From positions 1 through 36,620 of IMG/VR virus record IMGVR_UViG_3300012920_000110: a stretch of 36,620 bases of DNA; one strand, written 5' to 3'. Positions 5,041 to 28,596 of this stretch are shown here, piece by piece. The notes below the pieces were generated by a model that saw only the letters and a list, made by a program, of their open reading frames with translations, had not been told where the DNA came from and searched no databases. The position numbers were made by a program, and so were the translations under genes. Source of the DNA: a virus. Positions within the stretch are counted from its first letter, which is position 1. Every line of letters starts with the position of its first letter.

Positions 5041-8000
5041 TTAATCGTTTAGTGGGACGTATCGTTCGTATTTATTAGAGTAACTATCTACTTTGTTTAG
5101 TCGAGATCTACCTACTTCGGTTTCCATTAACTTGTTTGCTATGAACTTACTTATCACTGGTCTGTTCATGTAGCCGTGGTAGTTCATGTTCAGTCTTTCT
5201 TTGCTCACTCCTTTTGTTTTTGCTTGAGCAAACAGTTCATTCCACGAAACACCTAAGCGATTGTAACCCCGCATAATTCTGCGGAACTCATTGTTGTATT
5301 CCAATCTTCTGTCATAGATCCTGTCATACAGGTTGTAGATCTCTGAGTTTGTCATGCTGTCATTCGTCAGATACCTGTTCATTCTTGAGTTGATCTCCCT
5401 GTATTCTTCTGTGTGATCTCTCAAGTAGGATCTCAATCCGTTAGCTAGATCTACCTTATGTGGTTTAACAGGAGCGAACTCACTCAGGATCATACCAAGT
5501 GGGCTACTTAGAATAGATGTATCGGGTCTGTCTCCTTCCAATGCCTTCCAAGTTCTGCGGAGTTTGTTAAAGGATCTAGGCTCATAAGATTTCTCCCAGA
5601 CATGCACTAATATGTTTTTCATATTACCTGCCCAGTCTTCTTTTGAATCGATGATCCTTTGACCATACTGGTTCTCATTATTGAATACATCTTGAATAGT
5701 CCCTGCCAGAATCTGCTCGTTGTAGTATGGTCTCAGCAACCCAGTGAGGAGTTCTCCCGTTGCTTTAAACGGACTCACCCTGTCCATGAGATTCACTCCT
5801 TCTCTGAAATCGAATAGTGTTTCGAATGATCTGGATACCGCATCCGTTATTACGGAGAAGGGATTCATGTAAGTTAAGTCCAGTGATATTAAGTCCTCAC
5901 CTTTCGCAGCATCCTTCGGAACCATTCCAAAGAATTTGGATACGCTTGGTGGGAAGAAGTAGAACGTGTGATCACGAAGGTAATGGGGCATTCCTTTTCG
6001 CAATGCTTCGTCTTCGTCCTCTCCAATCTTAGCGAACACTATACGAAGGAGAGCAGGAAGGGCGAATGTGAATCCCATAGTTGTCATCATCCCCGACAAT
6101 CTTCGGAGGTAACGCTTTCGCATAACTGGGTTCTTCCTTCCTAGTTCTTTCTCTTCAGCGAGGAGAACAAAAGTATTACCCATAACTCTGGGAATCTCTG
6201 CTGCGAACCTGACGTAAGGCGCAAACAGTAGTCCAGTGGGACTTCTCGATAGCCATTTGATAGCGGGTGGTGCTTGGCTATATGACTGAGAAACCAACTT
6301 AACTTTCTTAGCTGCCGCCCTCTTGAGATCAACTGTAATCTTAGGCTCTTTATTATCATCCAAGATAACTTCCCCCCTACTGTTACGTTCCACCAAGTTG
6401 TAGAGCTTGGAGGTTTTGTCTGCCTCAGCCATTGCAGCTTCCTTTAAGTTGTTAAGCTCAAACTCATACAGACCTATCTTGTAGTAGGCATCCATAGCAG
6501 AAGCCAATCGGGTAGCAGTCCTTACCGCTTTATCGTATGCCGCCTTACTCTTGCCCGTTAATGATTCAGCTTTCTTCGCCAGATTTGCGAGTGAGTTTTC
6601 TACATCAGGTATTGATACTTTAGAAGTAAGGAGATCGCGCAATGCGTTTGCTTCCATCTCATCACCCCAGACATTGAAGGAAGCGAGGACTGTTAGCTCC
6701 GCATCCATCTCTGCTCTCGATCCCATTGCTGCTCGAACGATCATCGAGTTGTTATCTAACCCGATCATTCCTTTAGCAACCCCACCAACTTCTCCAAAGG
6801 CTTTACCCATGCCACCGTAGTAGCCTTGCATTGGACCAAAGAACATGGCGTTGCCCAACATGTTACGCACATAGAAACCTACCGATCCAAGTGTCTTAGC
6901 TGCGAGAGAAAGTCCCGTAGCACGGTGACCATATTGCAAAGCTTTACTAGCCATGTAAGTCATGGCGCTAGATGTTTCTTTAGTTGCAATCTCAGCCCGA
7001 TCTTTAGCAAGCATTTCTTTGAAGTCTTTCGCGACATCGGGGTGGACGTAGTGACCCTTCACTGGGTTCCAATCGGTCTTCCCTTCATCGGTCTTGAACT
7101 TCACGTAGTTCGAATACTTCTGTTGCTCTGGTGGTAGCTCTAAATCTTTGGCTATCTGTTCTGGTGAGATGAGCCAAGGGTTGTCCCCCATAGTTCCATG
7201 CTCAAGAATTCGGTTAAAGAAAGCTTGGTTAGCCATAACTCCAGCCACATGACTTAAAGTATATGCCAAGTTAGTGATCCCACCTTCGTCCCCATACTCA
7301 CCAAGAAGTTTCCTTAATTCAGATGGGACATTTTTCTTAGAGTTTAACTCTTCGACCAGAGATCTAAGTGGACCACCTGTAAATTTCTTTTGGTTGAGCA
7401 TGATGCTTCGCCCACCATCTGCTTGTTGGAAGATGTCTATCTCCGCAGTGACACCCTTCTTCTCGTAAGAGTTGATGAACTCTATCATCATCTCTTTACC
7501 CTTTGTGTTTGCTGTAGATCCTTTTGATTGTAGATCTAGCTCTACGTTTGTGGTTGCATCAGCCTTAGATAGACCTTGTCTCATTTGCTCCTTTATATGG
7601 AACTCCATGTATCTATCAGCAAAGAAGTTTATTGCGTCTTGTCTTATCTTGACATACTCAGGATCGGTAGACTCCCGTATTGTTTGTAGGAAATCATTGT
7701 CCTCAAACATACGATACCTTCTTGTGATGTAGATGCCACGGTTCCCATCGAAAGTAGCTTCGAATAGGTTCTCGCCCGAAACAAAATCGCTGAACAACTC
7801 ATTACCTTTTGCGGACAACTCGTCTGTGAGTTTACGCATATCGAGGATCAGCTTGTGTGCATCTGGTGAAAGCGCCATCAAATCCTTCAGTGCCTGATTC
7901 CTGTCAGCTAAAAGCTCATTGTGGTTCTGCTTCCTGAGTTTGTTCGCGGTTGCTACCTTTTTCTGTTCAGCAAGATCCAGTAAAACATCCCGTTGCTTTG

Positions 8001-11000
8001 TGCTCTTGGCGAGATTTGCTTTGCCTCGATCCTTATTGAACTGTGCTTCAATTTGATCTACCTGTGCGTCCGTTAATTGAGAACCCATGTTAGAACCAGA
8101 AGCTCTGGAGATTAACTCAGGGGGTATATCAATTCCCTCAGAAGCAAGACGGGAAATAATTTCGTCATGATTTTCTTTGAAGTCTTCAACTAACTTCTTG
8201 GTTTCTCTGACGAAGGCTTCACGCTCTTCGTTGAAGCGGATGATATCCCGATCCGCGTAACCTCTGGTAACACGACCGAACATACTGGAAGGAGACTGAT
8301 ATGTCCCAACCTCCATCAATGGAAGGTCGAGCATCTCGATCCAGTTACTAAAGTCTACAGAGTCCCCGTCTAATTCTTTTGGTATGAGTGAACCTGCACC
8401 CCAGCGGGACTGCAATCTTACTCCTCGTCCACTATCTGCTGAAGTGTCTCCAGATAATCTTCCTCTTCGCTGGTTGGCGGTGGATTCAACAAAAGATACT
8501 GCATTGTTTCCTCGTTCGTTTCGGAAGACTTCGTTGGCTGCGGACGCATAGTCGGGGGCTTCTCCTTCATCTGCTTTTGATCCGAACTCTGCGTGGACTG
8601 CTTTTTCATAATACCAAAGTATAGCTTGTGCTTCTGCTGGAACCATTCGGACTCCAGTCTGCTGTTCTAACTTATCTATAGCATCCAACATTGCAAGTCG
8701 AATAAACCTACGATGTCCTCCGCTTTGTGGGGCTTCAACTAATTCATACCCACTATCGATAACTTTGTAGAGTGCGTTAACAGATTTCCTAAGTTCATCT
8801 GTTATTGGTTCCGCCTTTTCCATCTTACCCTTGAACGTGACCCATGAACCCTGAGCATTGTCCCAGAACATTTGTCTGTTGTCCGCTTTGACCCAGAACT
8901 TCGCGAGCTTTAGCACAACTTCTGTGCTCATCTTGCGCTTCCTCCCAAGCCCTGCTTCCTTGAACAGCTCTCCTTTCGGATCTTGTTTGGCGTAAGCTAG
9001 TAGTGCCTTTACTACTCTCTCTTTCTTTTCTTTTAATTTCTGCGGGGTATCTCTACGGACTTGTGCTCCAGCAGTTCTTCCTAAAGTCCGCATGAACCAG
9101 CGGTCCATAGTTACCGTATCAAAGTTACCATTGAGGTTGTTATGGAACGATCCAAGTTTAGCGCCGAACACAAGCGAGAATGGAACCTTCTCGTCAATAA
9201 GCTCCCCAGTCGTAAGGTCAGAAGCTTTCTTAGCGGTGTATCCAAAGTCCCTAACTAGTCTGCCCCGTAGCTCTGCAACAGTTCCTGTTGTTGACAGGAA
9301 TTCTTCGACATATTCCCAGCCATACTGATCAATCCACTTGTCTAGAAGTTTGAAGTGGTTCTGAATTGTTTTCGTTCTCGACCCACTTGGTTTGACATCA
9401 GCGTTGTAAAACTTGCCAGTCTCTTTCCACTTCTGATAAACCTTCCACGAGTCTGCGGTTTGGTCTTTTACTTTGTTACCGTTCGATGTGATGGCGAGCA
9501 TCGCCTTGAAAACAAAATTGTCCTCTGGGTTTTTGATGTCTGCATCTAGCTCTTCAAAGATATCAACCGCCATCTGGACACGCTCTTCATACCAAGACAC
9601 AAATTCTGGGTATTCGTATAACGCTCTTTCCAATACTCCGTGTAAGCGGGAGCCTAACTTAGATATGTCATTGTAGTAAGCCTCTTCGGTTTTCTTGCTC
9701 TTCCAATTCTTAGCGGAACCTTTCCAGTTTTTGTCCCAGATGATGTTGTCTTTCTTGTCGTTCTGCAACTGCATCATCTTCGCCAACTCATGTGGCTTGC
9801 TACCCAAGATACCAGAGGCTACTTCTACTGCCCCTTCAAACATTGCTTTGTCTACTGCATCCTGCGCCTTGTTAACTTTGACGGTGAATACATCCGCACC
9901 AATCCTAGATTGGAGTTTGGGCTGTGATGCAATCAAGAGGTTGGTTGCCTTACGTTCTACTTTGTCGAAGACTGCCTCAAGTTCTGGCTTGTAGAACTCT
10001 GCCTTCTGGTTGTTCTGATATTTGTTACCACCAGTCTCTTTACCAACCCCTGTTTTATCACCTTCGAAGATCAGGAAGTAAGCGGTGCCGTCTGGACCAA
10101 TCGCGTTAGCTGCTTGCTTAATAACTTGATCACGAGCACTAGGTTCCTGCACCACATTTAGCACGTTATTAACGGTGGCAGTGTCTGCCTTACCATCTCT
10201 GATTGCATCGACTGCCAGTGCATTGTGGTCGGGGTTTCTGTTGAAAGGGTCGTAAACGTAGTTGGTGACATTAAACTTCTCGGCAAGAAGCTCTGACCCG
10301 TTGTCAAATTTACCACCACCAATGTCTGCATTGATGCCACCTTCAACAAATTCAACAACCTTTCTATCGGCAAGACTCCCAAATGTAGCGGGTGGTTTTG
10401 TCTGGTTGATGGAAGTATCTGCCGCAGTGAACTCTTGATTCTTTGGGTAGTCCCACAAAGCATCAGAACCTATTCTCGATTGTAGTCTTGGTGAAGCTTC
10501 TGCATCTTCATCTTCTCCGCTATCAGGATTAGTAGACCTGTTTATCTCCAAGTTCTTTAACAACTGACGCATCGTTGCTTCGGGGTCAGCAAGATCAAAG
10601 CGCATACCATTTGGCGTGAGCCTGTAACGTGCTTCCATTGCTCGCACTTCCCTAACAACATTGTTCACAGCGTTTCTCATTTCTGGAGAAACGTCTTTCA
10701 AAGTTCTAGCGTATGTCAGTTTAGATAGGAGACCTTTGAAGTAGAACTTCACAGTCTCTAATGTTGATGGGTTCCTGAGTAAGAAATCAACTTGCTGGTT
10801 TGTCTCAGAACCACGCATTACTTTCTGAACGTGGATACGCAGTTGTTCTTCTGCCAAAATAAATCTCTCAGTCCTACTGACTTCAGGATCTGAACTTCTA
10901 AATCTCTCCAGAGCATCTGCTCTTTCAGCTTCAGGGTAGTATTGTTCTATGATGCTCTGTGCATCCAGATCAGAAATACTATCCATGAGAACTTCGATCT

Positions 11001-14000
11001 CCGCTTGGGATAGTCGTGCGAAAGAAGCGGTATGTGCAATCTCCTCATTTAAGATAGCAGCAATTATGTGCTGTCTTCTGATCGGTTTGCCATCGGCAGC
11101 GGCTACCATCTGAGCAACTTTTGCTGCGGCCCTTCTGCCGTTGAAAACAATTGTCTCTGTTTCTGGATCGAACTCAGCGATAACATCGATTGTGTTATCC
11201 ATTACGATAGCAATTTCTGGTGGGACGTAGTTCTGTGCGAACAGGAAGAACTCTTCCGCTGCGTTGTCTAAGGCTTCGTTAGCTTGAACTTCTTCAGCCA
11301 TGCCAATACTAGATGCTAGTCTTGACCTAGACTTCTGCCTCGTCACAACTTTACCTGCAACCTGACCCGCGAATCCTGCACCCGTTTCAGGTTCTGGGAC
11401 TGCGCCTTTAGTGGTCAGGTCTAGTTGAGTCTCTAGTGCTTTCTTAAATTTCTCGTCGGACCTAGCAAACAGTTGGGATATTAAGTCGGTGACACGTTGT
11501 GCAAAGGTCCGTTGTCCAGTAGCTTTGGGAATTGATTTAATAAATCCTTGGAACTCTGAAGAAGTTAAGAAAACAGAAATGAATTCCTCTACATTAGAGA
11601 GGCCATACATCACTGTGTCTGGTGCATTTTGTTCCGCAGCCTTTCTACGCAAGATCTTTAGGACTGATTCGATGCGGTTGATTGCTGTGTTTTCAGCGGG
11701 AGTCCTTGCATCAGCGGACTTACCTAAAACACGATTAGCGAAAGCATGGACTATCTCGTGTAACAATACATCAGTTACGCCACGATCACTTCCCCTAGCT
11801 ATGTTGATAACGACATTGGGATCTCCGTTGCCGTCTACATAAAAGTTACCTGCGTAATCTGCGGAGGTAGTCTCGAAAGAAAACTTAATGCTCCTAATAA
11901 ACTCTTTGTCAGTGAGGAGAACTTTCGCGATAGCAACATGCGTATCGTTGGTGTTCCTAGATACGATTCTTTCTAAGGCTGCGATGACAGACTCTGGATC
12001 GTTTCCTTCTATGCCCAACGTATCCAACACTGCTTGGTTTACGGCGGCATTAGCTTCCATAGACCTGCCATTAATAACGGCTCTCTGCAAACTACCTTCA
12101 ATATGCTTGCCAATATCTATGTGGAAAGTGACAGCTTGATCGTCTGTTACATTGTAATCTTCGCCAGCAATTTGCTGTAGATCTACTCGCACTTGAGCAC
12201 GGAAATCAGCGTCTTCACTAATGTCTGTCTCTACTGTTGAGTTTGACAAGTTGAGTATACGAAGAATTTTTCGGACTGACTGACCTTGATCTCCGAAGCT
12301 ATCTTGTTGTAACGCGAGTTGGAAAGCTCTGGCGGCGCTATTACTTTCTTTGTTTCCCTTAGATAAGAAATGAACCAACTCATCGAATAGCTGATCAGGA
12401 GTCATTGAATAAGCCCTGCCTGTTTCAGAATGATATTCGGCGTCGAGCAATGAGGCCACCGCTGACTTCAGCGTTGTGTTGTTATCTAAAGACTCAGCTC
12501 CTAAGTTAAGCAGCGCGGTTATGTAATCACGAGTTCCTCTCTCTGGAAGTGGGGGTAGCGGGTTTGCCTTAGCTCCGACTGCTCTATCGTTTGGAGTAGG
12601 TGCAGTTTCAGGATCATTGAGGATAGGATTACCAGCCTCCATAACGCTGACCAAACCTCTAGCTGCTCTTTTGCTACGTTGAACTTGTTGGTTAAAGAAA
12701 TACTTAGACTCCGTTTGAACCACTTGTGCTACTACGAAAGGCGTTGAGCTAGTTGATTCTTCAGCGGCAACCTTACGTGCGTGTTCATAGATAGCGACTT
12801 GCATTTCAAGACTGGCAGCGATAACTGCACTTTCTTTGAATTGCTCTTGTAGCTTTAGGTATCGTGGGTCGTTCTCCAGAACCTTAGTTATCTGCGACCC
12901 ATCTCGTGCTCGCTTCAACAATGTAGAAAGTTTGATTCTACTTTTAGTGTTGAATGGGTTTCTTACTTTTGTCTCTTCGTCTATCTCTACACCAGACTCT
13001 TTGAGTTCGTTAAGTCGATTAGCTAGTTCCGAAATGCGGGAGTAGTCTTCTTCCAAAGCGCCTACCTTATGGAAGGCAGTTCTGGCAGAGACCATGCCTC
13101 CTGATTCCTGAACCATGATGTCGGAAACAAAGAACTGCTTCCCTCTTTTTATTAGTCTGAAAGACGGGTTGACCTTGCCTTCCCTGATGAGAGTTTCAGA
13201 AACAGGGATCGCGATGCCACTCTCAAGAAGAGTAACCATAGCAACGGGGTCATTGTCGAACACTCCGTTACCGTCTGCATCAAGATATACCTTACCTGCG
13301 GGTCCGTATATCTGTGGCAGAGCTGCCCCATCAACAGGCGTTTGTTCTGGTTTGCTAACTGGATACTTCGCTTCAATCCTTCTCTTTAACTCCTTAGTTA
13401 AAGTTCTCAATCGAGCTTTATCTATATTCTCAATAGAAACACCAAGCCTATGAAGCTGTTCGATAGTGAGTGTGTGGGCGTATCCGTTATCGACTAGCTG
13501 TTGGAGTTCAGCGATATCATTCTCTGAAGCCCCCTCCTTGTCTGAAGCCGCTTGATCTTTCTTGGTTTGAGCTAGTGTGTCATCAGCGAGCTTGCGTAAT
13601 TGCTTCGCATCATTCTCATCTAGCATTCTTTTCTCAGCGACAGCTTTATCCAAAGCTGCTCTCATTCTGGCAGCGGCTTCTGTTCTGCCAGCGTTTTCTG
13701 CTTCCTGTATTCTACGGGATAAATCTTTATGTAGCCCCCTTCGGTAAATAATATCACCGATCATTTCCTTGTGTTCCTCTTCAGGGGTAAGTTGGGTATT
13801 CTTTGCAGCGTGTTGTGAGGTTGTTTCCGCAAGACCTTCAACAGAATCTCCTGATACTTCTGCAACAACATCTGCCTCCGCACCGCCGCCTACTCCTTCA
13901 GTGCTTCCTTGGCGCTGAAGATTCTTAGCATCTTCTTTAGCGAGTTCTTTCCTCACTGCTTCAGGAGTCATCTCGTTCTTCAGCAAGAACTTTAACTCAT

Positions 14001-16797
14001 CTATTGTGGCTTGATCTGCCCCCTCAAGTTCAGGTGGGATAGTGTCCTCTTCGTCATCAAGAACATCATCAACAGTTGCCTCTAGTGCAGGACGTTCAGA
14101 TCTCTTGTATTGCCTTACTAATCTCTCCGCTTCTTTTGCGGTAGTAGGTGCTCCTACTTCCCTGAGTTTTTCAGTAAGCCCTTTGTCTTTGACATCTTGC
14201 TCGAACTGTTTGAATGCTTCACGCTCAACTCGTGCCGCTGCTGCGGTGTCCAAAAATTTACTCGGTGCAATATTCTTAGCTGCTTTACTTACAAGATTAC
14301 CACCACCACCTAATGCAGCACCTACGATAAATCCGTGCCAGACTTGACCCATCCTATCAAAGAACGAAGTATCTTCTTCTGTAAAGGCATCTGTTACTAG
14401 GGTGTTGAAGAACTCGTCTAAGGCTTCTTCCCGCCCCTCATCCCAAGCGGATCTAATAAGTCCTTTCGGGGATTCAATCATGTGTTTGCGTGTAACCTTC
14501 TTGAGAGATTCCTTCATCACCGCCACGAATTCTTTCGTGCCTACATTCCTACCCAGAATATTAGAGGTTATCTGTTTTATCTGCTTGCCGCTCATCCCCC
14601 TCAAGAATGTTTCCTCCAGACCACCTCTACCTAAAGCAGAAAATCCAGCGGTAATAACCCCAGTGATAGTTCCTGCAACAAGCGCACTGTCAAAAGCTGC
14701 GGCATGAGCTTCTTCTTTTACTCGTTGTTGACTCCAACCATCATCCCAATTGCCATCAACAAAATGTTCGTTTGTTAACTTGTCTTCCAATGTTTGATAT
14801 ACCGCACTGTAAGTGCCACCGCCTGACCTACTCGCAGCAGGTATGAACGTAGACGCAGTGATGTTCAGTCTTTTAGCTAAACGACTATTGAATGCGTTAA
14901 CAGCTTTGACCGTTGCACCCTTTGACAATCCCTCTATTCCTGCTGCTTTTATGATCCTATCGGCAGCTTGATCGGCAGTTTCTTTACCCACTTGTCTAAG
15001 TGTGTTCTTGCCAATAGACTTAATCGCTGCCCTAGCTGTAACTGTAGCAGAAGATTTAGCAGCTATATATGTAGCGGATGCGGCACCACCAGCGACATTA
15101 CCTACAGCGACAAGCCCTGCTGTAAGTAAAGCATCCGCCATCATAGGAGCTACTGCCTCCAGTATGTCTTGCCCCGAACCCATCTCCATCCCGAAGACGC
15201 GAGCTACTTCCCTACGGTGTGCATTTTCTTTTGCGATATCTAGTAGACCTTCTCTACCCCAGTCGGTATCCATTGCGGCCCCAACTCCGTAAACAATACC
15301 AGTAAGTCCGCCCCACACAGAACTCATTACCCCGCCAATCCTGTGTCCGATCCTACTGATATCGTGTTCAGTTTTGAAGTTTTCTAAGATCGTGGAATTA
15401 CTTAGACCCTGTTGTCTTCCCTCGATAAGAGCTGCATTGATATCATCAGCAAAATCCTCATCACTTCTAAGTAGAGCAACTATCCGATCAAAGTCTTGCA
15501 CGAGTGCAAGCTCTCTTTGTTTGTTGGCAGTTTCCCTAGCAACCCCCTCTACCCCTGCTTGATCTAGGGCTTTGTTAAAATTTACTGGATCAAGGAGTAA
15601 ATCAGAAGCTACTAAAACTCCACTAAACCTAGTCTTATGGACGTTCTGCCCTAGCTCCCCTTCGTTGTCTGTAAACTTAGTGAACTGAGATATTTGTTGT
15701 TTAGCGTCTCCTTCAAATGCCAGCTCGATGGTAAGGTCATTTATAACATCATCGAGAACCTCTCCGCTGTAATCAGTTAGGCGAGAGAGTTCTTGAATAA
15801 GTCCTGCTTTAGTTCTCTCAGGTGCATCCGCATAAGTTTCCCTAAGTCTGTTTCTGGTTAGCTCCCTAAGATATTCTGCTTCTTTTTCATTATCACCTGT
15901 GATGTTCGCAAAAGTAGCGAGACCTCCTTTGAATAATTTATTGAATCCATCACTTAATCCGTGATTCAGTCTATCGCCAAAGTCCCAAGTTTTTCTATCG
16001 GCATATTCTTTTGCCAACCCAAGTAGCCTGACTTTAGCATCGGTTATTTTTCCAAAACCTTTATCAACGTCTCTCGTAATTAACCTTTCATCTTGGCTGA
16101 AGATTAGGTCTCTTATTTCTTGTTTGGCTAAGAAGCGTTCTTCAACTTCGTAGCGCATCAACCCATTGGCCTCGGCTAATTTTTCTCTCTTGTGGCGAAG
16201 ATTAAATAAGTGTTCTGGTCTTACACCATACTTGGCAGCAGAATTTAGAAGGTCACCTTCTGACATTCCGTTAGGGATTCGTCCCCCCAAAAATATCTCA
16301 TTGCCATCTTCGTCTTCATAGACAGCAGCATTTATTTCACCCCTCTTAATTAGCTCTTTAAATTTTTTCTCGTTAGTCTTACGGACTATCTCAGCAATCC
16401 CTATTTCCTGTGATGGGTCACCAAGACCTGAATCATAGGCAACTAAAGCTCCCCTATCTTCAGCAGATAGGAACTCCATGTTGAACTCATCATCCCCTAA
16501 AAGATCTTTTACTGACGTTCTAAGATCTCTTTTGTTAATAGAATTTAACTTAGCGTTAACCTCTTCTACATTTTCAGTAGTTACTAATTCGTTTAGTGAT
16601 AACGCTTCGTTTAGGTTATAAGAAAGCTGACGCTCAATCCTTTCGTCATACTTGCCAGCATCAAGATACTCTTGTCTTAGATGTTTTACATACCTACCAA
16701 AACTTTCGACTTGATCGTCGTATGGGTTTTGGGCTGACCAATCGTCATACGAGGTCTCGATAAAATTGTTTGTTGTTGTGTCGCTTTGATCTGTCAT
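5041..16797 (-). CDS. Giant multidomain (polyvalent-type) protein, 3918 aa, probable internal/ejected virion protein
   Basis: One uninterrupted frame covers a third of the window. Order seen: helical N-terminus; alanine/glycine-rich hydrophobic helices (about 490-575 and 820); acidic linker; an EF-hand-like DADGNGVFD loop at 1173; an intact zincin motif HEIVH at 1680-1684; a second degenerate site EEIAH at 1918-1922; a Rossmann methyltransferase-like region starting DIGGG at 2158; a DUF7178-like Trp-rich region (about 2350-2560); long helical regions; glycine-rich hydrophobic helices (about 3300) and one near 3565; helical C-terminus. A motif LQSR(I/W)G separates the central domains. Position after terL and two helical proteins parallels T7 gene 14-15-16, so I infer an ejection protein carrying effector domains. 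No RNA polymerase or lysozyme motif was seen. Start at ATG 16797; no Shine-Dalgarno sequence. Confidence 0.8.
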   Translation of the reverse strand: MTDQSDTTTNNFIETSYDDWSAQNPYDDQVESFGRYVKHLRQEYLDAGKYDERIERQLSYNLNEALSLNELVTTENVEEVNAKLNSINKRDLRTSVKDLLGDDEFNMEFLSAEDRGALVAYDSGLGDPSQEIGIAEIVRKTNEKKFKELIKRGEINAAVYEDEDGNEIFLGGRIPNGMSEGDLLNSAAKYGVRPEHLFNLRHKREKLAEANGLMRYEVEERFLAKQEIRDLIFSQDERLITRDVDKGFGKITDAKVRLLGLAKEYADRKTWDFGDRLNHGLSDGFNKLFKGGLATFANITGDNEKEAEYLRELTRNRLRETYADAPERTKAGLIQELSRLTDYSGEVLDDVINDLTIELAFEGDAKQQISQFTKFTDNEGELGQNVHKTRFSGVLVASDLLLDPVNFNKALDQAGVEGVARETANKQRELALVQDFDRIVALLRSDEDFADDINAALIEGRQQGLSNSTILENFKTEHDISRIGHRIGGVMSSVWGGLTGIVYGVGAAMDTDWGREGLLDIAKENAHRREVARVFGMEMGSGQDILEAVAPMMADALLTAGLVAVGNVAGGAASATYIAAKSSATVTARAAIKSIGKNTLRQVGKETADQAADRIIKAAGIEGLSKGATVKAVNAFNSRLAKRLNITASTFIPAASRSGGGTYSAVYQTLEDKLTNEHFVDGNWDDGWSQQRVKEEAHAAAFDSALVAGTITGVITAGFSALGRGGLEETFLRGMSGKQIKQITSNILGRNVGTKEFVAVMKESLKKVTRKHMIESPKGLIRSAWDEGREEALDEFFNTLVTDAFTEEDTSFFDRMGQVWHGFIVGAALGGGGNLVSKAAKNIAPSKFLDTAAAARVEREAFKQFEQDVKDKGLTEKLREVGAPTTAKEAERLVRQYKRSERPALEATVDDVLDDEEDTIPPELEGADQATIDELKFLLKNEMTPEAVRKELAKEDAKNLQRQGSTEGVGGGAEADVVAEVSGDSVEGLAETTSQHAAKNTQLTPEEEHKEMIGDIIYRRGLHKDLSRRIQEAENAGRTEAAARMRAALDKAVAEKRMLDENDAKQLRKLADDTLAQTKKDQAASDKEGASENDIAELQQLVDNGYAHTLTIEQLHRLGVSIENIDKARLRTLTKELKRRIEAKYPVSKPEQTPVDGAALPQIYGPAGKVYLDADGNGVFDNDPVAMVTLLESGIAIPVSETLIREGKVNPSFRLIKRGKQFFVSDIMVQESGGMVSARTAFHKVGALEEDYSRISELANRLNELKESGVEIDEETKVRNPFNTKSRIKLSTLLKRARDGSQITKVLENDPRYLKLQEQFKESAVIAASLEMQVAIYEHARKVAAEESTSSTPFVVAQVVQTESKYFFNQQVQRSKRAARGLVSVMEAGNPILNDPETAPTPNDRAVGAKANPLPPLPERGTRDYITALLNLGAESLDNNTTLKSAVASLLDAEYHSETGRAYSMTPDQLFDELVHFLSKGNKESNSAARAFQLALQQDSFGDQGQSVRKILRILNLSNSTVETDISEDADFRAQVRVDLQQIAGEDYNVTDDQAVTFHIDIGKHIEGSLQRAVINGRSMEANAAVNQAVLDTLGIEGNDPESVIAALERIVSRNTNDTHVAIAKVLLTDKEFIRSIKFSFETTSADYAGNFYVDGNGDPNVVINIARGSDRGVTDVLLHEIVHAFANRVLGKSADARTPAENTAINRIESVLKILRRKAAEQNAPDTVMYGLSNVEEFISVFLTSSEFQGFIKSIPKATGQRTFAQRVTDLISQLFARSDEKFKKALETQLDLTTKGAVPEPETGAGFAGQVAGKVVTRQKSRSRLASSIGMAEEVQANEALDNAAEEFFLFAQNYVPPEIAIVMDNTIDVIAEFDPETETIVFNGRRAAAKVAQMVAAADGKPIRRQHIIAAILNEEIAHTASFARLSQAEIEVLMDSISDLDAQSIIEQYYPEAERADALERFRSSDPEVSRTERFILAEEQLRIHVQKVMRGSETNQQVDFLLRNPSTLETVKFYFKGLLSKLTYARTLKDVSPEMRNAVNNVVREVRAMEARYRLTPNGMRFDLADPEATMRQLLKNLEINRSTNPDSGEDEDAEASPRLQSRIGSDALWDYPKNQEFTAADTSINQTKPPATFGSLADRKVVEFVEGGINADIGGGKFDNGSELLAEKFNVTNYVYDPFNRNPDHNALAVDAIRDGKADTATVNNVLNVVQEPSARDQVIKQAANAIGPDGTAYFLIFEGDKTGVGKETGGNKYQNNQKAEFYKPELEAVFDKVERKATNLLIASQPKLQSRIGADVFTVKVNKAQDAVDKAMFEGAVEVASGILGSKPHELAKMMQLQNDKKDNIIWDKNWKGSAKNWKSKKTEEAYYNDISKLGSRLHGVLERALYEYPEFVSWYEERVQMAVDIFEELDADIKNPEDNFVFKAMLAITSNGNKVKDQTADSWKVYQKWKETGKFYNADVKPSGSRTKTIQNHFKLLDKWIDQYGWEYVEEFLSTTGTVAELRGRLVRDFGYTAKKASDLTTGELIDEKVPFSLVFGAKLGSFHNNLNGNFDTVTMDRWFMRTLGRTAGAQVRRDTPQKLKEKKERVVKALLAYAKQDPKGELFKEAGLGRKRKMSTEVVLKLAKFWVKADNRQMFWDNAQGSWVTFKGKMEKAEPITDELRKSVNALYKVIDSGYELVEAPQSGGHRRFIRLAMLDAIDKLEQQTGVRMVPAEAQAILWYYEKAVHAEFGSKADEGEAPDYASAANEVFRNERGNNAVSFVESTANQRRGRLSGDTSADSGRGVRLQSRWGAGSLIPKELDGDSVDFSNWIEMLDLPLMEVGTYQSPSSMFGRVTRGYADRDIIRFNEEREAFVRETKKLVEDFKENHDEIISRLASEGIDIPPELISRASGSNMGSQLTDAQVDQIEAQFNKDRGKANLAKSTKQRDVLLDLAEQKKVATANKLRKQNHNELLADRNQALKDLMALSPDAHKLILDMRKLTDELSAKGNELFSDFVSGENLFEATFDGNRGIYITRRYRMFEDNDFLQTIRESTDPEYVKIRQDAINFFADRYMEFHIKEQMRQGLSKADATTNVELDLQSKGSTANTKGKEMMIEFINSYEKKGVTAEIDIFQQADGGRSIMLNQKKFTGGPLRSLVEELNSKKNVPSELRKLLGEYGDEGGITNLAYTLSHVAGVMANQAFFNRILEHGTMGDNPWLISPEQIAKDLELPPEQQKYSNYVKFKTDEGKTDWNPVKGHYVHPDVAKDFKEMLAKDRAEIATKETSSAMTYMASKALQYGHRATGLSLAAKTLGSVGFYVRNMLGNAMFFGPMQGYYGGMGKAFGEVGGVAKGMIGLDNNSMIVRAAMGSRAEMDAELTVLASFNVWGDEMEANALRDLLTSKVSIPDVENSLANLAKKAESLTGKSKAAYDKAVRTATRLASAMDAYYKIGLYEFELNNLKEAAMAEADKTSKLYNLVERNSRGEVILDDNKEPKITVDLKRAAAKKVKLVSQSYSQAPPAIKWLSRSPTGLLFAPYVRFAAEIPRVMGNTFVLLAEEKELGRKNPVMRKRYLRRLSGMMTTMGFTFALPALLRIVFAKIGEDEDEALRKGMPHYLRDHTFYFFPPSVSKFFGMVPKDAAKGEDLISLDLTYMNPFSVITDAVSRSFETLFDFREGVNLMDRVSPFKATGELLTGLLRPYYNEQILAGTIQDVFNNENQYGQRIIDSKEDWAGNMKNILVHVWEKSYEPRSFNKLRRTWKALEGDRPDTSILSSPLGMILSEFAPVKPHKVDLANGLRSYLRDHTEEYREINSRMNRYLTNDSMTNSEIYNLYDRIYDRRLEYNNEFRRIMRGYNRLGVSWNELFAQAKTKGVSKERLNMNYHGYMNRPVISKFIANKLMETEVGRSRLNKVDSYSNKYERYVPLND
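8398..11319 (-). repeat. Four dispersed copies of an interdomain motif, consensus [RK]L[QA]S[RS][IW]G, in the giant protein
   Basis: Copies lie at residues L1827 (RLASSIG), L2105 (RLQSRIG), L2295 (KLQSRIG) and L2795 (RLQSRWG). They fall between the intact zincin, the degenerate zincin, the methyltransferase-like region, the DUF7178-like region and the following helical region. In the three LQSR copies the Leu, Ser and Arg codons all differ (TTG/CTC/CTA, TCC/TCT/TCG, CGC/AGG/AGA), so the likeness is kept at protein level and is not a recent DNA duplication. Confidence 0.75.
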
Positions 16798-23633: not shown

Positions 23634-24290
23634 ATGAGTGAAAAAACTGAGCTTGCACACGCAGCTCCTACAAGCAGTCTGACAACATCCGCTATTTCGG
23701 ATACGTTAGATCAAAGCGATATTGATATCCCAAGAGTCAATGTCGTTCAAAAGACCAGTGACATTACTGGTCCTGATGGAAACCCAGCACCGTATGGTTC
23801 TCTGGTATTAGATAAGCGAGTTATTCTCGCGCAACCTGAAGAAGCAATTCAAGTAGTTCCCCTAAGTGCAATCAAAGCATGGCGGGAAGATGTTCCGTTT
23901 GACTCGGATGACATCCCTAGAATTGCAAACTCTTCAGAGGAAAAGCAGCAACTCTCTATGGATTCGGAATACCCAATCCTTGAGTTCGCTGAAATCACTC
24001 TCTTGTTCAAAGGTGGTGATGACCCAGAAGCATTCCCTTTCCCACTCGGAAAAGACAACTATGCTATGGGTCGAATTAACGTAGCTAAAGATGCTTATAG
24101 GCAGACCTTTAAACGGCTTGCTACATTCGCAGTCTTCAACAAAAAGACTCCAATACACAAGCGTCTATGGAACTTCCAGTCAACTGCGATCACTCGCGGA
24201 AAGTATAGCTGGTTTGCTCCTTCTCTTACTATTACCAACGAAGAACCAAGTGATGAGGTCGTTGACTTTATTGGAGGTTACTTAGGATAA
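23634..24290 (+). CDS. Putative single-stranded DNA-binding protein, 218 aa
   Basis: The assignment rests on context and shape. The gene lies between the DUF2800 nuclease and the polymerase, a place where phages of this type carry their SSB. The product is a beta-rich protein with an unstructured N-terminus (about 1-30), aromatic residues spread through the core, and an acidic segment (NEEPSDEVVDF) at the C-terminus like the partner-binding tails of SSBs. No family motif is certain. Its AAACAAG-repeat leader suggests high expression, which would fit a stoichiometric ssDNA binder. Confidence 0.5.
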   Translation: MSEKTELAHAAPTSSLTTSAISDTLDQSDIDIPRVNVVQKTSDITGPDGNPAPYGSLVLDKRVILAQPEEAIQVVPLSAIKAWREDVPFDSDDIPRIANSSEEKQQLSMDSEYPILEFAEITLLFKGGDDPEAFPFPLGKDNYAMGRINVAKDAYRQTFKRLATFAVFNKKTPIHKRLWNFQSTAITRGKYSWFAPSLTITNEEPSDEVVDFIGGYLG

Positions 24291-24535
24291 TGGCTGAGAT
24301 AACAGATGCAGAAGTTCTCAGCAATGAGATCCAAAAGTTGGAAGGCATCATATCCAAAATTGATGAAGCTCTTGTTGCAACCCAACATGATCTTCGCGTC
24401 ACCAAAATGGTGAAAGAAGTTTTGGAAGAGTCCTTAGCAAATAGGCCGCAGCAAGAATTGATGGATATTCTTGGCATACCAGAAGTGGTAGAGCTTGCTT
24501 CTCCTGAAGCAACTGTGAAAGACACCGATAACTAA
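24290..24535 (+). CDS. Small coiled-coil protein, 81 aa
   Basis: The ATG overlaps the previous stop as TAATG. The first 55 residues form a heptad-like helix (EVLSNEIQKLEGIISKIDEA) suited to a coiled coil, with a short acidic tail. It is the last gene before the structured leader at 24536-24670. The coupling to the ssDNA-binding-like gene suggests it acts with it, but the function is unknown. Confidence 0.6.
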   Translation: MAEITDAEVLSNEIQKLEGIISKIDEALVATQHDLRVTKMVKEVLEESLANRPQQELMDILGIPEVVELASPEATVKDTDN

Positions 24536-24557
24536 CCAATTCCGACAAGGAAGGGGA

Positions 24558-24575
24558 ATGCGGCGGCATAGGTAG
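24558..24575 (+). CDS. Possible five-codon leader peptide MRRHR
   Basis: ATG CGG CGG CAT AGG TAG encodes Met-Arg-Arg-His-Arg. It is preceded by AAGGA six bases upstream, one of the very few well-spaced Shine-Dalgarno-like sequences in the window. The codons coincide with the left arm of the antiterminator-like pairing. It may be chance in a G-rich stretch, so this is a low-confidence call. Confidence 0.25.
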   Translation: MRRHR

Positions 24576-24624
24576 TTGCTGGTTATTATCATCCCCCAAG
24601 GGGTAATCGCATAAAAGCCCCTAC

Positions 24625-24662
24625 TACCCCGCCCTCTTTATCGGGGGTGGGGTATTTAATTT
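24625..24662 (+). terminator. GC-rich intrinsic terminator-like hairpin 17 bases before polA
   Basis: TACCCCGCCCTC (24625-24636) pairs with GGGGGTGGGGTA (24643-24654) over 12 pairs, two of them G-U, with a six-base loop, and is followed by TTTAATTT. The T tract is interrupted, so termination may be partial. It stands between the end of the 81-aa gene and the polymerase start. Confidence 0.6.
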
Positions 24663-24670
24663 AAAGTATT

Positions 24671-26434
24671 ATGGACAGATATATTTACGCAGTAGACTTT
24701 GAAACCTACTACGACAAAGAGTGTAGTATCAAAACACTGGGGACGCTTGGCTACTTTAGTCATCCTCAGTTTGACGCCTATATGGTTTCTGTTGTGGGGA
24801 CTGATGGGACTAAGTTTGTAGGACACCCCAAAGACTTCGTGTGGGAGAAACTTAACGGACAAGTTGTGCTTTCGCATAACGCCAGCTTTGACGAGACGTT
24901 GTATTACTACGGGGTAAATCAGGAATGGTGGGACTCTTGTGATCCTTACGAGTGGCACTGCACGGCGGACTTAGCCGCTTACTGTAAGCTCCCAAGATCT
25001 TTGAAAGGGTCAACGGCAGAGTTGTTTGGTCTTACTGTAGATAAAAGCACGAGGGATAATATGTCAGGTAAGCGATGGGAGGAAATGACTTCTGAGTTCA
25101 AGGAGGAGGTTTGTGAATATGCCATCAAAGATAGTGAGCTTTGCTTGAAGTTATGGGAAACGCTTAGTGATAAATGGCCTGAGTTTGAAAGAAACGTAAG
25201 TAGTCTTAATAGAAAGATCGTTCAACAGGGTATCCCGATTGATGAGGATCTACTTAAAAAGCAACTCGAAACAATTAAATTGAAGCTCTTTGAAGCTGAA
25301 GAGAACATTCCTTGGTTGGGGGATAAACCCCTACTTAGTAGGGCGGCTTTTGATGAGCAATGTCTACTAGTTGGTATCAAGCCCCCAGTAAGTTTGGCTG
25401 CGACAGATGCAGAATCTCAACAGTGGATAGAATACCATAGTGGTGAGCATAAATGGATATCTGCTGTAAAAGACTGGAGAAGGATAAACTCCCTCAAGAA
25501 AAAGTTAGAAAGTTTTGATTATGCAACTATGCCCAACGGTAGGTATTACGGAGGGTGTATGTATTTTGGCGCACATACAGGAAGGTTTAGTGGGTCGGGC
25601 GGCAACTTAAATTTACAGAACTTACCCAGAGAAGAAATGTTTGGGGTAAACCTTAGACATTTAATAGCGCCCAATAATGACAAAAGATTAATTGCTGTAG
25701 ACCTTTCTCAGATTGAAGTTCGGACTTTATGCTGGTTAGCTGGCGATTCCGAAATGTTGAAAGAGATTGAGCAAACAAATGATATCTACGAAGCATTCGC
25801 CATCAGGTTTGGAATGTGGAAATCAGAAGATGGATCTATTAAGAAAGAACCAAAACTTAGACATGCAGTAAAAGGGATGGTTCTTGGCTGTGGCTATGGC
25901 GCAGGTGCGACTAGGTTCTCTGAAATGTCTGGTATTTCTGAAGAGGAAGCGGGTAAGCGAGTAAAGAAATATCGGATGAAGATGAAGAAAGTTAAATCCC
26001 TATGGGAAGAATACACAGGTGAGATTGAAGGATCACATGTATCGAAGGCTGAATTTACAGTAGACCTGCCAAGTGGCAGGGTTATTAACTATGGCAGATT
26101 AAAATCTTTTGCTGAGGGTGGTCGTAACCATTATCTAACTAAAGTCCCAAGACATGGAAAGAGTGTCACCGTGCGTTTGTGGGGAGGACTTGTTGCGGAA
26201 AACGCTAGTCAGGCACTGGCGAGAGATATTTTTTCTGATATGCTGCTTCGCGTTGATAAAGCGGGGCATAAAATAATTATGCACGTTCACGACGAAATGG
26301 TTATTGAATCACACAAAGACGAAGCTGAAGAAACTCTCGCGGACATAATAAGGATTATGTCCAAACCACCACAATGGATACCCAACATTCCAGTAGAAGC
26401 AGAGGGGTCAATACTAACAAAATATGAAAAATGA
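24671..26434 (+). CDS. polA: Family A DNA polymerase with 3'-5' exonuclease, 587 aa
   Basis: The proofreading domain has exo I (D9, E11 in AVDFETYY), exo II (SHNASFDE) and exo III (YAIKDSEL). The polymerase domain has motif A (D344 in AVDLSQIEVR), motif B (R397, K401, Y409 in RHAVKGMVLGCGYG) and motif C (H540-D541-E542 in HVHDEMV). At 587 residues it is the compact phage form without a 5' nuclease. The residue at the E. coli Phe762 position (K+4) is Leu405. It replicates the phage genome with the primase-helicase that follows, whose start overlaps its stop (ATGA). Confidence 0.96.
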   Translation: MDRYIYAVDFETYYDKECSIKTLGTLGYFSHPQFDAYMVSVVGTDGTKFVGHPKDFVWEKLNGQVVLSHNASFDETLYYYGVNQEWWDSCDPYEWHCTADLAAYCKLPRSLKGSTAELFGLTVDKSTRDNMSGKRWEEMTSEFKEEVCEYAIKDSELCLKLWETLSDKWPEFERNVSSLNRKIVQQGIPIDEDLLKKQLETIKLKLFEAEENIPWLGDKPLLSRAAFDEQCLLVGIKPPVSLAATDAESQQWIEYHSGEHKWISAVKDWRRINSLKKKLESFDYATMPNGRYYGGCMYFGAHTGRFSGSGGNLNLQNLPREEMFGVNLRHLIAPNNDKRLIAVDLSQIEVRTLCWLAGDSEMLKEIEQTNDIYEAFAIRFGMWKSEDGSIKKEPKLRHAVKGMVLGCGYGAGATRFSEMSGISEEEAGKRVKKYRMKMKKVKSLWEEYTGEIEGSHVSKAEFTVDLPSGRVINYGRLKSFAEGGRNHYLTKVPRHGKSVTVRLWGGLVAENASQALARDIFSDMLLRVDKAGHKIIMHVHDEMVIESHKDEAEETLADIIRIMSKPPQWIPNIPVEAEGSILTKYEK

Positions 26435-28596
26435 AATACAGATACCTTAAAAACCTCAGAGATAAGAAATGCACGGCGTGTGATGACATGTCGAAGATTG
26501 TTTCAAGTAGGCCCACATTTAAATCTAAAGCAGCTTACAGAGAATGGTGTGGTAAGAAAACCACAGACCATTGCTTCTTTAGTATGTGCGAAGGACTTAA
26601 CTCAGGCGCACGTATCGAAGGAGAGAATAAAGTAGTTAAGGTTCACGGGGTTGCTGCGGACTATGATGCTCCAGTTGATTGGGTGAATGCAGATAATATT
26701 ATCGCGGCTAAGTGTGTCGGATGTATGCCCACATGGAGGGCTAAGACTTACAGCGGGTATATTCGTGTCTTGTTTGAGTTTGAGGAAGTATGTTCGGTCC
26801 CTCACTTTATCTACAAACCATTTATGGCAGAGCTGAAGAAGCTCATAAACTTTTCAAAGATCTTTGCAGGGTATGATAAGAAATCTGAAGAACCCTCTCA
26901 ATACTTTGAACTAGGGACAGATTGGGTAAACCTTGGTGGCAAAGTCCCTCCTAGTGTTGTGCAGACTGCCTTGATTAAGGCGGCACAAAACAATCCCCCT
27001 GAGTCTAAAGAGACCTCGATACCTATTGAAGAAGTCGCGGCTGAGGTTGAGAAGAGATTTCCAAACAGGTGGATAGGAGACTTTGAAGTTGGATCTAGGG
27101 GTCCGTTGTTCTGGATTGATGACGGGATTGATCGTGAGGGTTGTCAGGTTTTTGAGGATGGTATGATCGTCTACTCAGACAGGGATCAACCTTGGAAAAC
27201 ATGGAGAGATATTTTTGGTAAGTCCTTTGTTAAAGAATATGAAGAGAAAAAAATGGGAGGACTGCTGGATGAGTATTGGTTCAATGGTAGGCAGTTCTTT
27301 AAACTTCTTCACGGTGCTGCTCAGATAATCCCAAGAGATCAACTCGTGCTTGAGTTAAGGCAGCGAGGGTTTAGACCAAAGACAAAGAAGGGGGAGAATA
27401 TATCAGAAGTTGAAAACGCTATCTTAGTAATCAGCAATCAGAATAGGATTAATGAGATTGCGCCCGTTGTATTCAGAAGAGACAAGAGAGTTGTAGATTT
27501 CAATGGGTTGAGAATTTTAAATAGCTCAAACATCGAACCAATCATGCCAGCGGAGAGTGGTGATGTTAGTGAATGGCCTTGGCTCTATAAATTCTTTGAC
27601 CAGTTCTTTGTGGATTCTACCCCTATAAGAACTAAGAATTATTTCTTTGCATGGATGAAGAGATTCCACAATGGCGTAATCAACAACAAAGAAGATCAAG
27701 GACAAGCATGCATATTTGTTGGGCCAGCTAAAATGGGTAAGACACTTATGTCTAATAAGATTATCGCGGCAGCAGTGGGCGGTTATGCTGATGCCAGTGA
27801 TTATCTTTCTGGTGGAACTAAATTTAATAAAGACTTAGGTAGAGCTGCTTGTTGGGTCATTGATGACACAGTTAGTGCAGCTTCTTTTCAAGATCAGCGG
27901 CGAGCTACAGAACTTATTAAGAGGGGTGTAGCTAACCCAAGGATCGAGTTCATGGCTAAGTATGCTGATGCGGTTACTCTTCCGTGGGCAGGTAGGATTA
28001 TTGTAAGTCTCAATGATGACGCTAATAGTATGAGTGTTATCCCAACACTTGACTCAAGTAATAAGGATAAACTTATGGCGTTTAAGATAAACCCCACACC
28101 TTTTAAGTTCCCTCCCAAGGAACAACTTGAGGCAATCATTGCACAAGAGCTTCCTCATTTTTTGAAATGGCTCGCCGATTGGAACCCACCTGTTGAAGTA
28201 TTGGATGATGACAGGTTTGGCGTTAAAAGCTTTATCGACAAGAGTATTGCCCATGCCGCCTACGACAACTCAAGTAGATCACAAGTAGCAGAGCTTGTTG
28301 ATTTCTTTGCCAAAGCTGCTCGTGAGAATGATATCGAAGGGGAGTGGAGCGGGACTTTAACTGAGTTCCAGCGAGCTTTACACACCTACAACAACGGCAG
28401 AACTTTAGGTTCCTCAAACAAAATTGAGTTCGTGCGGAATGGATTAGCACATATGGAAGATGGCGGTAAGTCCAACTTGAAACTTAGGCCCATCAAGTCT
28501 GTTGGTAAGGGCGGTGGTAAGATATGGACTATCAATATAGAGGAGAAATATGATATCGACTTTACAGAGAGTTCGCAGGACGCAGTGCTTCAATAG
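26431..28596 (+). CDS. Primase-helicase, D5/DUF5906-like SF3-type ATPase, 721 aa
   Basis: The C-terminal half has Walker A GPAKMGKT at 431-438, Walker B WVIDD (475-479) and a sensor-like RIIVSLNDD, the set seen in phage DUF5906/D5-like SF3 helicases. The N-terminal part carries a D77-Y-D79 pair (HGVAADYDAP) that may be the metal-binding acid pair of an archaeo-eukaryotic-type primase; this half is less certain. Unwinding plus priming would serve the polymerase encoded just before it. Translation is coupled to polA by ATGA. Its last 35 bases overlap the convergent nuclease-like gene. Confidence 0.85.
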   Translation: MKYRYLKNLRDKKCTACDDMSKIVSSRPTFKSKAAYREWCGKKTTDHCFFSMCEGLNSGARIEGENKVVKVHGVAADYDAPVDWVNADNIIAAKCVGCMPTWRAKTYSGYIRVLFEFEEVCSVPHFIYKPFMAELKKLINFSKIFAGYDKKSEEPSQYFELGTDWVNLGGKVPPSVVQTALIKAAQNNPPESKETSIPIEEVAAEVEKRFPNRWIGDFEVGSRGPLFWIDDGIDREGCQVFEDGMIVYSDRDQPWKTWRDIFGKSFVKEYEEKKMGGLLDEYWFNGRQFFKLLHGAAQIIPRDQLVLELRQRGFRPKTKKGENISEVENAILVISNQNRINEIAPVVFRRDKRVVDFNGLRILNSSNIEPIMPAESGDVSEWPWLYKFFDQFFVDSTPIRTKNYFFAWMKRFHNGVINNKEDQGQACIFVGPAKMGKTLMSNKIIAAAVGGYADASDYLSGGTKFNKDLGRAACWVIDDTVSAASFQDQRRATELIKRGVANPRIEFMAKYADAVTLPWAGRIIVSLNDDANSMSVIPTLDSSNKDKLMAFKINPTPFKFPPKEQLEAIIAQELPHFLKWLADWNPPVEVLDDDRFGVKSFIDKSIAHAAYDNSSRSQVAELVDFFAKAARENDIEGEWSGTLTEFQRALHTYNNGRTLGSSNKIEFVRNGLAHMEDGGKSNLKLRPIKSVGKGGGKIWTINIEEKYDIDFTESSQDAVLQ

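Follow-up and report, generated by a model that had tools for sequence, protein, structure and literature searches.

A predicted pseudoknotted RNA element in the leader of a phage DNA polymerase gene represents an unlisted family of structured RNAs in uncultured phages

Structured RNAs in the leaders of phage replication genes are exemplified by the pseudoknot of the T4 gene 32 leader and the operator of T4 gp43, both of which serve autogenous control and each of which is bound to a single gene. In the ZTP (pfl) riboswitch two helical parts are joined by a pseudoknot that runs from the P1/P2 junction to the loop of P3. The put sites of phage HK022 suppress termination via the zinc-binding domain of the beta' subunit of RNA polymerase. 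These sites, putL and putR, are two stem-loops acting on RNA polymerase as a cis RNA of ~70 nt, which suppresses intrinsic as well as Rho termination (PMC9378689). The element described here resembles the two T4 systems in being a structured RNA in the leader of a phage replication gene but is, unlike them, found beside dozens of gene families. It has the topology of the ZTP riboswitch, judged by the general layout of the latter; however, the ZTP consensus appears to be different, the element has no match in Rfam, and no purine or folate genes are consistently found nearby. Like put it is a phage RNA of about 70 nt, presumably acting in cis, that is located upstream of terminators without overlapping them. 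Compared with the published description of put, i.e., two stem-loops for which no pseudoknot is described, the element does not fit, as it consists of three helices and a pseudoknot, all four of them covarying.

The window, i.e., the whole stretch of DNA analysed, comprises 36,620 nt of IMG/VR virus record IMGVR_UViG_3300012920_000110. On its plus strand a small upstream gene with an open frame of 81 aa (24290..24535), the stop codon of which lies 17 nt 5' of P1, is followed by the conserved structured RNA element of ~75 nt (24551..24625), the sole covariance-model match in the window (81.9 bits), and by an intrinsic-terminator-like hairpin (24625..24654) that ends 16 nt before the start codon of a family A DNA polymerase gene (24671..26434; 587 aa; Pfam PF00476, PHROG 17). 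The polymerase gene is overlapped by a gene of 721 aa (26431..28596) with a match to Pfam DUF5906, which was labelled primase-helicase in the initial annotation. A small open frame is found at the same place as the upstream gene in relatives of the polymerase locus both with and without the element. The hairpin, already recognized in the initial annotation and convincing, is predicted from sequence hallmarks, with a stem of 12 bp (-23 kcal/mol) and the T-rich tail TTTAATTTAA, and the window leader folds better than shuffled sequences (z = -2.75). Elsewhere in the window about a third of the record (5041-16797, minus strand) encodes a protein of 3918 aa without a Pfam match.

Among the polymerase relatives in IMG/VR the upstream block is conserved far above the needs of a leader peptide, with the consensus GGYA-WUGYGR-CGG..loop..UGGUYA..AUCRCC-P3-GUAAYCRCAUAAAAG-P3'. 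Four helices account for this pattern: P1, P2, P3, and a pseudoknot of 5 bp (UGYGR/YCRCA) that links the P1/P2 junction to the loop of P3. In the window P1 is formed by GGGG (24553..24556) and CCCC (24594..24597), P2 by CGGC (24564..24567) and GCTG (24578..24581), directly after which comes a conserved GTYA, and P3 by GGGG (24600..24603) and CCCC (24618..24621); P1 and P3 covary. The 5' strand of the pseudoknot, TGCGG (24559..24563), which shows compensatory changes, pairs with TCGCA (24607..24611) inside the P3 loop TAAYCRCATAAAAG. The fold is compact and retains invariant unpaired bases. Many members also have an enclosing outer helix, P0, for which cognate flanks paired better than mismatched ones in 56 elements (permutations were as good in 5/2000) and again in 43 others (0/5000); P0 is not evident in the window leader.

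The fold of P1, P2, and P3 with the pseudoknot, and its conservation, is near certain on the comparative evidence. In an alignment of 35 sequences 96.9% of the cells are paired with 127 two-sided changes, and the covariation score is 0.492 compared to 0.139 for shuffled and at most 0.125 for slid structures. As the first searches had fixed part of the pseudoknot, the test was redone on 29 matches, many of which had been reached via polymerase homology or the covariance model, which contains no pseudoknot. Here 98.3% of the cells are paired, with 113 two-sided changes and a covariation score of 0.551, and four of the five pseudoknot pairs show compensatory changes while none is broken. Covariation thus holds also in sequences found without any sequence pattern. 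The exchanges seen are U-A/C-G, C-G/U-A, G-C/A-U, and G-C/U-G; for example, U-A becomes C-G in two matches from bacterial genomes, G-C becomes A-U in L240 and G-C becomes U-G in L227. The middle pseudoknot pair is intact in all of 83 elements, as C-G in 49 and as U-A in 34, and the last pair is G-C, G-U, or A-U; in 43 further matches 214 of the 215 pseudoknot cells are paired. Several positions of P3 show all four Watson-Crick pair types, and the G-U pair of P2 (24565/24580) is invariant across both alignments. In alignments made with the model, the counts for P1 to P3 lean toward that model. Two coding explanations were rejected. The stretch GGTAAYCRCATAAAAGCC, which reads GNRIKA, is not a conserved coding sequence, since the length of the P2 loop varies by single bases and the helices covary. 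Pseudoknot-driven readthrough of a stop codon was also discarded, as the upstream frame in phase with the polymerase gene meets a TAG at 24569-24571.

The leader had initially been read as an attenuator in which translation of a five-codon arginine peptide, or the supply of arginine tRNA, decides whether the replication genes are transcribed. The frame ATG CGG CGG CAT AGG TAG (24558..24575) is present with an AAGGA upstream, as is the pairing of 11 bp between GGCGGCATAGGTAGT (24562-24576) and ACTACCCCGCC (24623-24633) with a bulge of 4 nt, and Shine-Dalgarno sites are indeed rare in this phage (a core at 2 of the 26 gene starts surveyed in the window). These features are not conserved among relatives, however, where the frame is 4 to 42 codons long, begins with ATG or TTG and has no common stop, so that it most likely encodes no regulatory peptide. 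The AAGGA is found only in close relatives of the window, where it is part of a mini-hairpin, TTCC-gacaa-GGAA (24540..24552), that is absent in L013, L015, L016, L017, and more distant members. The two CGG triplets proposed as arginine codons are letters of the pseudoknot strand and the base of P2, and the first is TGG in several relatives, in which the pairing partner in the pseudoknot has changed too. Nor did the proposed antiterminator hold up: the left arm of the terminator pairs equally well or better with 267 of 1000 shuffled elements, forcing the antiterminator state costs 12.5 kcal/mol relative to the minimum-energy fold, and cognate pairings between element and terminator are no stronger than mismatched ones in 27 leaders (permutations at least as good as cognate: 0.64 for the whole element, 0.47 for the P2 region). 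The locus resembles the peptide attenuators of amino-acid operons in having a structured leader and, by sequence hallmarks in the window and its relatives, an intrinsic terminator between leader and first gene, but it differs from them in having neither a conserved leader frame rich in the sensed amino acid among the relatives compared nor a conserved competing antiterminator in the 27 leaders and 1000 shuffles. Sensing of arginine tRNA or translation by a leader peptide is therefore hardly credible. The wider suggestion that the leader controls the polymerase remains plausible because a conserved structured RNA is followed there by a terminator-like hairpin; the part that is evolutionarily conserved, i.e., the pseudoknot and the P1-P2-P3 fold, had gone unnoticed.

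The element is a member of a family of structured phage RNAs that is carried by many unrelated uncultured phages and unlisted in Rfam. A pattern based on the consensus retrieved 20 and then 106 stretches of IMG/VR contigs, most of them from phages without a polymerase of the window type, and in total at least 256 elements (~250 loci), at least 108 of them non-redundant, were found in IMG/VR. Under model R1 the scores of the elements found by pattern span 52-86 bits, the best of the remaining matches reaches 12.7, and later variants score 34-80. A first pattern for P3 variants without the GG/CC closing pairs gave only chance matches because that pattern altered the innermost pair as well; a better one gave at least 120 matches, at least 115 of which have the 5' strand of the pseudoknot. 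As the searches reach only sequences near the patterns, the family size and the consensus are biased toward these. One clear copy was present in each of the 25 records scanned (30-138 kb). Two copies were found in one contig in L099 (1572-1645 and 2032-2104, separated by an ORF) and, in tandem, in L106 (22-96 and 122-198). In Rfam 15 no family except tRNA reached the gathering threshold for the window and 20 loci, and scans at low threshold gave only noise with no meaningful sub-threshold match, the ribozymes and riboswitches of Rfam being among the families that were not matched. Similarly, no convincing match was found by blastn at E 10 in 50,697 records of cultured phages, and the core strings were absent from 5.39 million open-access papers, to which the literature search was confined. 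The element is nearly absent from cellular genomes. An exact pattern gave two genuine matches in 84,980 cellular species: one belongs to Cerasicoccus, the other to a phage-like contig from an Altibacter bin. The model gave two further strong matches in 388 genomes of the Cerasicoccus phylum and no match in 199 genomes of the Altibacter family. The leader on the Altibacter contig (L129; NZTP01000071.1) is almost identical to that of a phage locus (L012), which may reflect a host link or a binning error.

The genomic setting was assessed for the 108 non-redundant elements among the matches listed, with ORFs called mechanically on IMG/VR contigs that may be fragments. Both called neighbours are on the same strand in 65/108. 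The called downstream ORF is co-oriented with the element in 81/101 and on the other strand in 20/101, some of these calls being doubtful, and the upstream ORF is co-oriented in 89/102 and on the other strand in 13/102. From the upstream stop codon to the element the median distance is 14 nt, and the downstream start lies a median of 59 nt away; in 64 of the 89 co-oriented cases it starts no more than 30 nt from the upstream stop codon. The neighbours are diverse, falling into 55 downstream and 49 upstream protein clusters, and although they are often replication genes they do not represent any single regulated pathway. About 32 elements among the matches listed precede a polymerase of the same family as that of the window, and one (L343) adjoins an unrelated phage polymerase. 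Other neighbours are Gp2.5-like or other SSB-like proteins, Sak4-like proteins, exonuclease VIII, HNH endonucleases, dCMP deaminase, a replication initiator, RIIB, a glycosyltransferase, the large terminase, and tRNA. In several contexts other than polymerase, P0 or P3 lies 5-18 nt before an ATG that lacks a Shine-Dalgarno sequence, and in six loci (L054, L070, L084, L099, L103, L116) 5-7 U are found within a few bases after P3. Some elements, as in L070/L116, are near the end of a gene run.

In contexts other than polymerase, e.g., in L040, L043, L103, and L205, P3 is succeeded by a pyrimidine tract (about CACYYUUUUY); in the L040 group this tract is GCACCTCC, with a by-eye likeness to the 3' end of 16S rRNA. 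The element is directly beside a tRNA gene in a few loci, with tRNA-Thr after it in L070 (2970-3128) and L116 (8132-8288) and tRNA-Met(CAT) before it in L078 (2469-2636). L126 (5490-5813) was grouped with these cases, and in the Cerasicoccus locus a tRNA-Met(CAT) is found ~170 nt before the element. Clustering with tRNA genes is nevertheless not a general rule, as it applies to 3/256 elements among the matches listed. In L041 (6115-7390) and related contigs the element is preceded by a gene for a protein with HTH and HNH endonuclease parts. Behind the element comes over 1 kb of DNA rich in repeats, which may be an origin or control region and in which no convincing co-oriented gene lies close by.

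Within the polymerase clade the terminator and the element can be separated. The element was present wherever polymerase identity was at least 67% and enough upstream sequence was available, the picture was mixed at 64-66%, and no polymerase locus below 64% had the element. Leaders with the element have a GC-rich hairpin 3' of it that ends 8-21 nt before the start codon where properly located, leaving no room for a promoter behind the terminator. Relatives without the element (~54-66% identity) mostly have canonical terminators by eye, e.g., GCCCACCCCGAC..GGGGTGGGCTTTTTC. A second scan, the automated U-tract counts of which cannot be relied on since the hairpin boundaries extended into that tract, detected hairpins of -12 kcal/mol or lower in 25/25 leaders with the element and 43/49 without. 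One of the former (L231) has no separate terminator, its scan hairpin of -14 kcal/mol being the element itself, and in several other element-bearing relatives the U-tract is poor. As the terminator is kept with or without the element, it is the trait held in common, to which one subclade has added the element. The median intergenic length is 77 nt without the element and 143 nt with it, and the short stretch in the former places the terminator only a little way behind the upstream stop codon. Terminators in the vicinity of a stop codon are suppressed by ribosomes, with termination reaching its maximum beyond ~30 bp (PMC4824070). In the window the distance from stop codon to terminator is 89 nt, so that suppression by ribosomes should be lost and other means of read-through are to be expected. 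This spacing is the main argument, and an indirect one, that the element may act on the terminator of the polymerase clade. A simple strand-exchange switch is not supported, as no strand of the element pairs with the left arm of the terminator in a conserved way in the 27 leaders. In four polymerase leaders without the element (L247, L259, L266, L279) a different long hairpin block, e.g., TCATAGAGGGGACTCACCCGTATGATGATCATGCTGTGGGGGCGTG, is found at the same place and may be another leader RNA; L263 and L272 bear a partial resemblance to it.

As to function, the reading that we tentatively favour, at somewhat short of even chances, is that of a cis-acting regulatory leader, which would govern read-through into the polymerase gene in this phage and the start of translation in other members. 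The element would be made as part of the mRNA and fold as the RNA leaves RNA polymerase. Its folded state, probably determined by a ligand or a bound protein, would control the frequency with which transcription continues beyond the terminator at 24625-24654 into the polymerase gene and its successor. Where a terminator is lacking, translation would instead be gated by P0 or P3, positioned a few bases ahead of the start codon. A role in cis is suggested because the neighbours are mostly co-oriented and because the terminator of the polymerase clade sits 8-21 nt before the start codon. As in riboswitches there is a highly conserved folded domain with covariation. The terminator might serve as an expression platform but shows no strand coupling, and P0 near the ATG might do so in several members. 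On the other hand, the neighbours do not share the pathway of one ligand, and the absence of a common target gene among the 55 downstream and 49 upstream clusters is unusual for a ligand-sensing riboswitch. Gating of the next gene makes little sense in L041-type phages, with more than 1 kb lacking a convincing co-oriented gene; the lack of common targets and these gene-poor contexts weigh against a classical riboswitch. The downstream ORFs called on the opposite strand, the poor U-tracts in several element-bearing relatives and the lack of conserved strand competition also count against a cis-acting leader. It is conceivable, at less than even probability, that the element is a new class of phage RNA that is independent of any particular gene, is usually present as a single copy per genome across many unrelated uncultured phages, and makes a contact specific to its fold rather than sensing a metabolite of a single pathway; the contact may be with RNA polymerase, the ribosome or a host defence factor, or the element may cleave itself.

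More specific alternatives are each unlikely to a different degree. A free-standing small RNA, usually one per genome, that is transcribed from within the upstream gene or cut from the mRNA and acts in trans on a host or phage factor is rather unlikely. The single clear copy in 25/25 records, the dozens of unrelated neighbourhoods, the 5-7 U after P3 as at the 3' end of an RNA, and the directly adjoining tRNA genes of L070/L116 and L078 would suit it, yet the element is mostly co-oriented with and close behind an upstream gene, no dedicated promoter was identified, the site is held constant through the polymerase clade, P0 reaches close to a start codon in several members, and adjacency to tRNA is rare. 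A processive antiterminator like put, i.e., a nascent RNA that binds the transcribing polymerase and carries it through the terminator without a ligand, is unlikely. In its favour, the element stands immediately before a terminator that transcription has to get past, neither overlaps nor pairs with this terminator and is not bound to one gene. Elements located toward the close of a gene run (L070/L116) count against it, as does, by comparison with the published description, the pseudoknot, which is never mentioned for put. Improbable, too, is an element for RNA processing or stability (an exonuclease block or a self-cleaving ribozyme) that fixes where the upstream message ends (3') or where the downstream one begins (5'). 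The short distance to the upstream stop codon (within 30 nt in 64/89 co-oriented cases) and the compact pseudoknot with invariant unpaired bases agree with this, whereas the lack of a match to any known ribozyme in Rfam and the 13/102 upstream ORFs on the other strand do not. Proximity to replication genes and the repeat-rich DNA of L041-type phages could point to an element of the DNA itself, e.g., a replication origin or a single-strand initiation site, but co-orientation with genes and the G-U pair that is invariant in both alignments speak for RNA, and a DNA element is accordingly very improbable.

Widespread structured phage RNAs are seldom described outside cultured models. With a clear consensus, strong covariation, hundreds of examples in IMG/VR and no entry in Rfam, a searchable model of this element could be released now. 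The polymerase clade, in which the terminator is kept and the element is present or absent, provides a natural comparison. If the element controls read-through into phage DNA polymerase genes it would represent a regulatory layer that is missing from phage annotation, whereas action in trans or on RNA polymerase would make it a new means of taking over the host.
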